DNA from: an uncultured Lachnospiraceae bacterium
GTDB lineage: Bacteria > Bacillota > Clostridia > Lachnospirales > Lachnospiraceae
Assembly: GCA_946626215.1 (NCBI GenBank)
Contig: CAMOUD010000007.1
Location: 1 to 39,421 of the forward strand
Direction: 5' to 3'
Length of the DNA stretch: 39,421 nt
The notes below the pieces were generated by a model, which saw nothing but the letters and a program-made list of their open reading frames with translations, was not told the DNA's origin and made no database searches. Both the position numbers and the translations under genes were made by a program. Each line of letters opens with the position of its first letter. Positions within the stretch are counted from its first letter, which is position 1. Shown piece after piece: positions 4,640 through 8,269 of this stretch.

Positions 4640-7600
4640 TCAGATGCTCTGAATGGTCACCGTAAAGGAAAGGGGCCTGTCAGAAGGGATCATGTAGGCA
4701 GGAAGGGGCGTGGCACCCCAGCTGTCATCCCCGCCCACGCCCATCTGCCTCAGGCAGCAGCGGACGATGGTCCTGCAGACAGGGGGAAGCTCATAGGCGT
4801 GGGCCGCCTCCTCCAGCTGGTCCGGCGTATAGGGAATGGCGGAAAAGCACATGCCCTCCGGAAGGCTGCAGGAAAAGCGCAGGCCCCGGCCGGAAGCGTC
4901 GGTGACCTCGGCCCAGCGGACCCCGGTCCGGTTCCCCGTTTCCTGGGGCACCAGGTAGGGCTCCAGGCAGGAGCGGGCGTCGGTCTCATAGACGCCCAGA
5001 CGGGCCCCCTCCCTCCGGTCCTCATAGTTCTCGGAGGGTCCCAGTCCGTAGTAGCGGATCCGGGACAGGTCCGCGGGCAGGGTGAAGAGGAAGCCGAATT
5101 CAGGCAGGTCCGGCAGGCCCTCCACAGGCTCATAGTCCAGGGTCAGGGACCAGGACCCGTCCGGCCTGAACCGGTAGGTCATGGCCGCGGAGGCGGCAGG
5201 CATGGTGGGCAGGTAGCGGAGGGTCCGGATCAGGATATCCTCTCCGTCTGCCCGGGGCACCGGCCGGAGGGTCCCCTCCGCGGCCGCCCGGGCCGTTTCC
5301 TCCGCTCCCAGGGGCAGGGCCGTATTGTAGAGGCTGGCCAGCTTCCACTGGGCCAGGCGCCGGGGCATCTGACAGCCCAGGTCATTGGAGACAGGCGCCC
5401 GCCAGAAGCAGGGCCTGGGAGCCTTGAGGATCCGCTCGATGCCGCCCGGCCGCCAGGAGGTCAGGCAGCCCTCCAGATAGGAGTAGAGGAAGTCCCCGTG
5501 AACGCCCCGGATGCCGATATTGTAATCCCCCTGGATGACCTGAAGGGGGGCAGGAGCGGGATCTGCGGAAGCGGCCGCGGCCTCCTCTGTCCGCAGGACG
5601 GCCTGGGCAAAGGCGGTCTCATGGCCGGCCGGGGCCCAGGAGGTATCCTCCTTCAGGAAGAAGGACAGGGTCAGGGCGTACTCACCGGGCTCCCCTGCCG
5701 GAACGGGAGGCAGGAGGACCTCCGTCTTCTCCAGAGGCGGGCAGGCGATGGAAAGAGGACAGGAGAAGACCTCCTTTCCCTCCAGGGAGGCGGTCAGCCT
5801 GGCCCCGAAGGCGGAGACGTCCGTAAAGAGATGGCGGTTGTCGATCTCAGCCCGGCCCAGGATCTGTCCGTCCTTTCGCTCCAGGGAAAGGTCCGTCCGG
5901 ATCCTCCGGTAGTTGTAGCGGACCTCGTCCATCTTGGCGTAGGGCCGCCTGTCGGCGGTCATGATCCCGTCGCCGCTGAAGGCGTAATCGGTGGGCCGCT
6001 CGCCCATATCTCCGCCGTAGGCCATGTAGTCCCTGCCGAAGGGATCCTTTGCCCGGATGGCCTGGTCCACGAAGTCCCAGATGAAGCCGCCCTGGTAGCG
6101 CCTCTCCCGGGTCTGGAGATCGGTGTAGAGGTGCATGCCGCCGATGGAGTTGCCCATGGCGTGGGTATACTCGCAGCAGATGAAGGGCTTTTCGGGGTTC
6201 TCCGCCAGGAAGGCCTCGATGGCCGCGGCCGAAGGATACATCTGGCTTTCCATGTCGGAGGTATCCGGATAGGACCTGTCATGGAAGATGCTCTCATAGT
6301 GGATGGGCCGGTCGGGATCCAGGCGGCGGACCTCCTCCTTCATGGCGTGGATCACGGACCCGCCGAAGGACTCGTTGCCCAGGGACCAGATCAGGATGGA
6401 GGGATGGTTGAAGTCCCGGGTCACGCAGGAAAAGATCCGGTCCAGCAGGAGGGGCTCCCACTCCCTGTGGTCCCCGGGGATGATGTCCTCCCTGCGCTGG
6501 AAGCCGGCCTCGTAGAGGTTCCAGGAGCCGTGGGATTCCATGTTGTTCTCGGCGATCATGTAGAGGCCGTATTCATCGCAGAGCCGGTAGATCCAGGGGC
6601 CGTTGGGGTAGTGGCAGGTCCGGACCGCGTTGATATTGTTCCGCTTCATGGTGAGGACATCCGCCAGGGCCTCCTCATAGCCGATGGCCCGGCCCCGGTC
6701 GCAGGAGAACTCATGGCGGTTGACGCCGCAGAACTCGATCCGCTTTCCGTTCAGGCAGAGGATCCCGTCCAGGATCTCGAACCGCCGGAAGCCCGTCTTT
6801 TCCCGGACGACCTCCAGGGCCCTTCCCTCTCCGTCCCGGACGGTCAGGGCAAGGTCATAGAGGACGGGGCTCTCCGCGCTCCAGAGGACGGGGGCCTCCA
6901 CAGGAGAGGCAAAGGAGACCCTGCCCTCCGCGGCCGGGACAGTTCCGGAAAGGACCAGTTCCTCCTCCAGATACAGGGCTGCCTCGATGGTCCCGCCCTT
7001 CGCCTCTCCCATCAGGTCCATCTCCAGGGAAAGGGTCCCCTCCGTCAGGTCGGGGGCGGGCAGGGCCTTTACCTTCAGGTCCCGGATATGGAGGGCGGGC
7101 ACGGTATAGAGAAAGACGTCCCGGAAGATGCCGGAGAACCGGTAGAAGTCCTGGTCCTCCATCCAGGAGGAGGCGGTCCACTTGAAGACCTCCAGGGCCA
7201 GCTTGTTCTCTCCCTTCTTCAGCCAGGGAGTCAGGTCAAAGTCGGAGGGAGTAAAGGAATCCTCGCTGTATCCCACGTAGGCGCCGTTGAGCCAGAGAGC
7301 AAAGCCCGACTCCACGCCCTGGAAGGAGGCAAAGACCTTCTCTCCCTCCAGGAAGGCGGGCAGGGTGAAATACTTCACATACAGGCCTACGGGGTTATAG
7401 TCCTGGGGGATCTCTCCGGGCAGGATATCCTCCCGGCCGTCCCAGGGATACTGGTAGTTGACATAGGCCGGCCTGTCATAGCCTTCCATCTGGATATGGG
7501 CCGGGACCGGGATCTCCTTCCAGCCATGACAGTCCGTCTCCTCCCTCTCAAAGCCGGCGGGAACGGCGGTCCTGTTCTCGGCATAGGAGAACTTCCAGAG

Positions 7601-8269
7601 ACCGTTCAGGGACCAGACAAAGCCGGTCTCCTCCCGCTTCTGGGAAGAGGCCTGCCAGGCCGGACCGGGGGCCAGCTCAGGCCGGAAGTAAAAATGGTCG
7701 GAATGGGCCGGCAGGACATTCTCCTTGAAGACCAGGGGATCGGCCGGTATGGTCTCCTCAAAGAAGGAGGGCCGGTCTCCTCCTGCCCAGGCAAGGACCG
7801 CTCCGGCCCGGTCCGGGAAGAAGGCGGAAGCAAAGGTCTCCAGTTTTTCCCTCAGGCCGGAAAGAGAGCCCGCGATCAGGTCCTCTCCCCCCTGCTTTTT
7901 CCAGGCGTTCACCCTGGACCGGAACCGGGACAGGGTCCTTTCGGAAACGGGCTGGTTGGTAGCGTGGGCGGTATGGAGGGCTGTCTGGAAGCGGAGGTCG
8001 AACATGCAGGAGTCCACCAGTTCTTTATCCGTCAGGCCCATGCACTCCTTGAGGAGGAGGGCCCCTACCAGGACGTTGACAGGCACGTTGGGCCGGGGTG
8101 ACCGGCTGCTGTAGAGGACGGCGAAGCCGGACTCATCGATATAGGGAAACAGGTCGTCCCCGAAAGATCTGGCCCAGGAGGCGTCCAGGGCCTTTTTCTC
8201 CCGGTCGTTCAAGGGCATGAGGGCGTCCCTGAAGCCCAGCTGTTCATAGGAATTCGTCGAAAATGACAT
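4640..8269 (-). CDS. fusion protein: IS1182-type transposase N-terminal domain + GH2 beta-galactosidase
   Basis: One open frame of 1209 residues carries two unrelated parts. Residues 1 to about 150 look like the N-terminal DUF772-like domain of IS1182-group transposases: '[15 protein letters not shown]', '[17 protein letters not shown]', '[18 protein letters not shown]' and '[13 protein letters not shown]'. The DDE catalytic core is absent. From about residue 173 it is an LacZ-type GH2 enzyme: '[10 protein letters not shown]', '[10 protein letters not shown]', the sugar-binding and jelly-roll domains, the acid/base Glu633 in [12 protein letters not shown], the nucleophile Glu700 in [13 protein letters not shown], and a full C-terminal small-chain domain. 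The enzyme should therefore be able to hydrolyse beta-galactosides. The start at 8269 has AAAGGAAG upstream. No ATG, GTG or TTG codon lies near the junction, so the beta-galactosidase seems to be made only as the fusion. The gene has its own promoter, with a terminator-like hairpin in the leader. Confidence 0.88.

Follow-up and report, generated by a model that had tools for sequence, protein, structure and literature searches.

In one genus of Lachnospiraceae, the GH2 beta-galactosidase LacZ carries at its N-terminus a domain derived from an IS1182-like transposase. Domestication of this domain, a possibility raised in an earlier note on the DNA, is strongly supported: the fusion is found in 28 of the 62 genomes of the genus, its N-domains form one clade, the fused LacZ parts form one clade, and the N-domain is under purifying selection. 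The fusion gene lies in a window of 39,421 nucleotides, the whole stretch of DNA analyzed, from the contig CAMOUD010000007.1 of an uncultured Lachnospiraceae bacterium. The gene is made up of the following parts.

4640..8269, minus strand: fusion gene, 1209 aa, IS1182-like transposase N-domain plus GH2 LacZ (open reading frame, Pfam, NCBIfam, recurrence in the genus)
7826..8269, minus strand: residues 1-148, transposase-derived and predicted all-helical N-domain, with DUF772 at 59-122 and a conserved basic helix at 110-125 (Pfam, alignment, AF2)
7766..7825, minus strand: loosely conserved linker, residues ~149-168 (alignments, dN/dS)
4643..7765, minus strand: residues 169-1209, beta-galactosidase from its first residues, with motif glutamates E633 and E700 (Pfam, NCBIfam, LacZ tree)

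The frame is open across 1209 aa from the ATG at 8269. A longer frame would begin at the ATG at 8356, and the start that matches relatives is 8269. Pfam places the DUF772 "transposase domain" at residues 59-122 (E 2.7e-10, past the cut-off) and five GH2/LacZ domains between residues 220 and 1206, all past their cut-offs. The NCBIfam model beta_gal_Bga2A (NF052611) covers residues 176-1208 with 1259.5 bits against a cut-off of 999. The earlier note's reading of a transposase N-domain joined in frame to a beta-galactosidase therefore holds. Residues 1-150 had also been read as a transposase domain without its DDE core, and Pfam finds DUF772 and no DDE domain in the fusion protein, which thus lacks the core that defines an IS1182 transposase. 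In NCBIfam, the N-domain alone matches IS1182 (E 1.2e-8) and IS5_1 (E 1.6e-8), far under the whole-protein cut-offs; the IS1182 score is 29.5 bits for the whole protein and 34.4 for the N-domain alone, below the family cut-off of 270. The columns of E633 and E700, which we take to be the LacZ catalytic residues, hold glutamate in every member of the 28 that covers them (the first column has two gaps and the second has one). With the Bga2A score, this bears out the claim of an intact GH2 enzyme with both glutamates. A frame of 1100 codons runs antisense to the gene (window 4799-8101, plus strand) and is probably a by-product of high G+C.

IS1182 transposases (NF033551) are composed of DUF772 (PF05598) and DDE_Tnp_1_6 (PF13751), and their N-terminal ~148 residues are like those of the fusion. 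Aligned with 18 IS1182-like transposases, the window's N-domain shows 43-52% identity to 16 and 32-33% to the other two, and the stretch QPxSxRTLxRFRxR is common to both. Full-length transposases with the same N-domain and DDE domains occur within the genus (G027, G034, G058, and G020). Unlike these elements, the fusion has no catalytic domain, no IS-end core strings upstream, a single genome copy, and an attached enzyme. Compared with Bga2A/LacZ (NF052611), it possesses the whole enzyme, both motif glutamates, and a score above the cut-off, but has ~168 extra N-terminal residues and no ABC permease/AraC neighbor. Transposase homology is secure up to about residue 148. Beyond it, "RLDA" is a weak match to the transposase "RMDS", presumably the place of the first catalytic Asp. 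A possible weak vestige of the first DDE strand is seen in the linker of some other members and is absent in the window's protein. The LacZ part looks complete from its first residues, which by eye line up with the beginning of unfused LacZ. The stretch between residue 125 and the HSDH motif ranges from 64 to 138 aa across members, a variation that would suit a tether. In three other genomes (loci L107, L114, and L128), the transposase frames stop at about transposase residue 272, and the loci have no additional transposase match at E 1e-5; these genes are perhaps truncated or interrupted at a shared site.

The N-domain is matched in 31 of the 62 genus genomes. Besides the 28 with an in-frame LacZ fusion (the copies of G026, G035, and G015 run off a contig end), one genome has the N-domain without LacZ (G040), one has it with a LacZ remnant and a further LacZ-type match on a separate contig (G025), and one has a transposase only (G041). 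Named records with the fusion are Sarcina sp. DSM 11001, Lachnospiraceae bacterium NK3A20, and Firmicutes CAG:791; the first two are apparently cultured strains, judging by strain names and the lack of a MAG label. A broader contig scan with two peptide patterns, which divergent cases may escape, gave 28 loci, of which 23 are LacZ fusions, two lack a full LacZ, and three are transposases or pieces of them. Across the family, N-domain matches occur in 24 of 397 genomes. Two of these, G000 and G031, are fusions and belong to the genus. Each of the 18 loci examined outside the genus matches a transposase verified by Pfam and is itself a transposase or a piece of one; the matches in four further family genomes lie in frames of 70-187 aa. 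The genus loci examined for other fusion partners hold LacZ fusions, the two N-domains that lack a full LacZ, and transposases or pieces of them. In 120 family genomes, the 28 LacZ matches beyond the window's own genome lie in frames that span 963-1131 aa and leave no room for the N-domain.

The draft assembly of the window's genome comprises 243 contigs, and the earlier note had named recurrence of the fusion in related genomes as a check. The same in-frame join recurs in 28 species, two of them in named-strain records, which speaks against an assembly join or frame artefact; we regard that explanation as having next to no probability.

The trees point to a single origin. Fusion-derived N-domains form one clade apart from the 18 transposases (support 87/84; 28 fusion-derived rows, namely 26 fused genes plus G025 and G040, with G050 and G005 omitted as near copies). 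A LacZ tree of 64 rows places the 28 fused sequences in one branch (SH-aLRT 100) with three unfused ones that group together (G041, G037, and G047), and this branch is nested within the unfused LacZ of other genera. This tree was built by a quick method, and some inner forks are weak. It requires two changes of the fused label, apparently one gain and one later loss common to the three unfused genes. Distances of the N-domain and of LacZ co-vary over 27 of the 28 rows, G015 being left out (Mantel r 0.645, with 0 of 2000 permutations as high). The N-domain thus has what is looked for in a domesticated domain: one copy (a single match in the window's own genome), shared descent, purifying selection, and no catalytic core. 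Its being kept intact in many species suggests that the domain has been put to new use.

Constraint on the N-domain is strongest among near relatives. Over codons 1-125, dN/dS is 0.02 in G038/G050, 0 in G055/G005, 0.045 in G033/G023, and 0.042 in G058/G003, the four pairs of lowest dS, and 0.024 in G014/G013. In the same five pairs, the TIM barrel has values of 0.025-0.079 and the linker of 0 to 0.32, and the linker is faster than the N-domain in four. The next pairs by dS give N-domain (barrel) values of 0.31 (0.38) for the window and G057, 0.25 (0.18) for G035/G020, and 0.11 (0.18) for G003/G057. Across 25 pairs, N-domain dN/dS is at or below that of the barrel in 14 and above it in 11, with a range of 0 to 0.64; many of these pairs are near dS saturation, and the highest values are from distant pairs with unreliable dS. 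Pairs that include the window range from 0.13 to 0.52. In G055/G005 (loci L065 and L069), the N-domain has a synonymous divergence of 0.058 and the remainder of the gene one of 0.16-0.46, which hints at gene conversion or DNA-level constraint.

The N-domain also persists alone. In G040 it is intact in a shortened open reading frame (L074, 3040-3582), with no LacZ piece in the 11.5 kb locus, and in G025 an intact N-domain likewise lies in a shortened frame (L070, 5723-6700), with a LacZ remnant. Pairwise dN/dS of these lone domains is 0.036-0.060, and that of the subclade holding them is 0.033-0.064, the near-identical G055/G005 aside. Independent function of the lone domain is suggested by these values, and stays a suggestion because the date of the LacZ losses cannot be fixed.

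Residue comparison of the 28 fusion-derived rows with 16 transposases (two distant ones dropped) shows which features were retained. The fusion-derived N-domains keep the transposase residue in 28 of the 35 columns that are conserved among them. Lysine or arginine at positions 93, 111, 115, 117, and 119 is kept in 93-100% of fusion-derived rows, and the net charge of residues 101-126 is +4.2, against +0.3 in the transposases. Basic residues become less frequent at five other positions: from 100% in transposases to 18% in fusions at 74, 100% to 46% at 56, 81% to 32% at 30, 94% to 61% at 26, and 100% to 71% at 59. Tyr8 is invariant and specific to the fusion. AlphaFold (AF2) predicts nine helices for residues 1-150 (pLDDT 84, pTM 0.81). 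The model of residues 1-420 has the same helices plus one (pTM 0.60) and is consistent with a tethered N-domain. Foldseek against the PDB found no solved structure resembling the N-domain at E 0.001 (best E 2.3). A lone profile match to 9kp1, component 1 of heptaprenyl diphosphate synthase (E 0.0053), was taken as chance. From the retained basic helix and the role the domain is presumed to have in transposases, where its place suggests recognition of element ends, we infer that the N-domain of the fusion binds DNA.

Translation of the enzyme was considered at the junction. In the window's gene no ATG, GTG, or TTG lies in frame near it, as the earlier note had observed. That note had also seen in the Shine-Dalgarno-like AGGAGGAGA at 7784-7776 a possible relic of a lost lacZ start. 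AGGAGG occurs 8 times in the coding sequence of the fusion, and such a string is present at the junction in 9 of 28 members at varying places, so it is read as chance and the relic is abandoned. An internal start yielding a second, unfused enzyme was rejected as not conserved: 12 of 28 members have start codons 18-35 codons ahead of HSDH, and 1 of 28 has a Shine-Dalgarno-like string.

Two elements are seen in the DNA upstream of the gene.

8345..8350, minus strand: TATACT, possible -10 box of an own promoter (by eye)
8320..8338, minus strand: hairpin with a T-run in the 5' leader, resembling a terminator or operator (one found against 0.4 expected in shuffles)

TATACT is also seen by eye upstream in G058, G003, G057, G038, and G050, and a consensus scan found no full promoter upstream of the fusion gene. 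The hairpin sits downstream of the possible -10 box and ahead of the start codon; it is a possible attenuator or operator, and visual inspection did not show it upstream of the gene in relatives. Capture of an IS promoter, proposed earlier as the alternative to domestication, is not supported as a description of the present state: the core strings of IS ends (exact strings of two end repeats from one related IS) are absent from up to 400 nt upstream of 30 loci, and the subclades have different DNA there. By eye, no operator shared by all these upstream regions was seen. Many members begin within ~100 nt of a same-strand upstream gene, so a shared self-operator directly upstream is unlikely.

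The neighborhood of the fused gene has changed as well. A homologue of an ABC permease, solute-binding protein, or AraC regulator lies within 1.5 kb of 0 of 28 fused genes and 21 of 35 unfused genes (4 of 8 in the genus, 17 of 27 in other genera; locus L155, where the gene was not located, is dropped). The queries were drawn from three unfused loci, with identities by Pfam, and give three matches by construction; without them the unfused count is 18 of 32. Fisher p is 9e-8, or 5e-7 without the three query loci, and both values overstate the evidence because the fused genes are one clade and the contrast is essentially that of one clade with the rest. Upstream flanks are almost complete at fused loci and shorter at unfused loci, and downstream flanks reach at least 1.4 kb in 22 of 28 fused loci. 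Fused genes have no permease/AraC match even up to 3.5 kb. Among the unfused genes inside the clade, that of G041 is preceded by genes for an ABC permease and a solute-binding protein, and those of G037 and G047 have no permease/AraC match in flanks that cover less than 600 nt upstream. One representative per subclade, identified by Pfam, shows an upstream gene for a NUDIX (G034), PLD-type (G031), DeoC (G033), SDR (G056), or flavodoxin protein (the window). Sugar transport is not wholly absent from these neighborhoods, since a gene of a PTS EIIC-type cluster, one of which was tested by Pfam, lies near 8 of 30 loci. Elsewhere in the window (9673-10749, minus strand), PlsY is joined in frame to an acylphosphatase domain in a protein of 358 aa (Pfam). 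This is an odd pair, as acyl-phosphate is the substrate of PlsY, a glycerol-3-phosphate acyltransferase.

The explanation we favor, and hold tentatively, is that the N-domain is a domesticated DNA-binding adaptor. An IS1182-like element, whole or in part, would have inserted before lacZ in the ancestor of the genus. Loss of the catalytic core would have left the presumably end-recognizing N-domain in frame with a complete LacZ, away from the common neighbors of unfused lacZ, genes of ABC transporters and of the AraC type. E. coli LacZ is a tetramer, and a LacZ oligomer could present several tethered copies of the N-domain and bind specific DNA. The most likely role of the fusion would then be that of a self-regulating "trigger enzyme" that substitutes for the lost operon control. 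Regulation is a best guess, made from the loss of operon neighbors, the varying length of the tether, and the survival of the N-domain on its own. The further proposal, that LacZ acts as a lactose-sensing, DNA-bound regulator without a separate repressor and that the domain of G040 is a small DNA-binding protein, is speculative and on balance rather unlikely.

The N-domain might instead be a structural or oligomerization element, or a solubility or stability cap for LacZ, that does not bind DNA. This is possible, though not likely: strong constraint alone is not specific to DNA, Foldseek gives no DNA-binding relative in the PDB, and the invariant Tyr8 and lost basic residues fit a new protein contact. 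A twofold variation in tether length counts against it, as do the three intact LacZ genes inside the clade without the N-domain, the survival of the N-domain without LacZ or beside a remnant, and the retention of the basic helix in a region that has become more basic.

The retained residues shared with transposases also bear on an anti-transposition role, in which the fusion at related IS ends would be a dominant-negative transposase inhibitor aided by LacZ multimerization. Truncated transposases are known inhibitors, and related transposases do occur in some fused genomes (two in G027, one in G034, and a fragment in G018; G058 has one more distant transposase and G020 has three). Yet a close transposase (>40% identical) is found in only 3 of 28 fused genomes, where drafts may miss IS copies, and IS targets change fast while the N-domain changes slowly; this role appears improbable. 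Still further from the data is a passive relic, a transposase fragment that supplies only the start codon and translation signals. It fits the lack of an internal start in the window's LacZ. The low dN/dS of residues 1-125 in five near pairs (0-0.045), the faster linker in four of them, and the N-domain conservation shared across the genus make it very improbable.

The DNA-binding adaptor would have counterparts among known systems. Host-transposase fusion genes of vertebrates arise by transposase capture, a known source of new proteins, and TldR proteins are TnpB-derived bacterial regulators. In these, likewise, a transposon protein or its DNA-targeting part has been exapted by the host. The fusion differs in that the N-domain of a DDE transposase is fixed to a bacterial metabolic enzyme, and regulation would be its putative function. 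Trigger enzymes such as PutA combine an enzyme and a DNA-binding part in one protein, an arrangement that is proposed for the fusion. No conserved fusion of a DDE-transposase N-domain to a bacterial metabolic enzyme is reported among the literature matches listed, and passages of PMC8987985 contain no report of a LacZ-transposase N-domain fusion.

A group of bacteria from gut and rumen thus has a milk-sugar enzyme fronted by a domain from the enzyme of a jumping gene, and named strains with the fusion exist. LacZ is the classic enzyme run by a separate repressor. A LacZ with its own DNA-binding domain, if true, would be a different solution.
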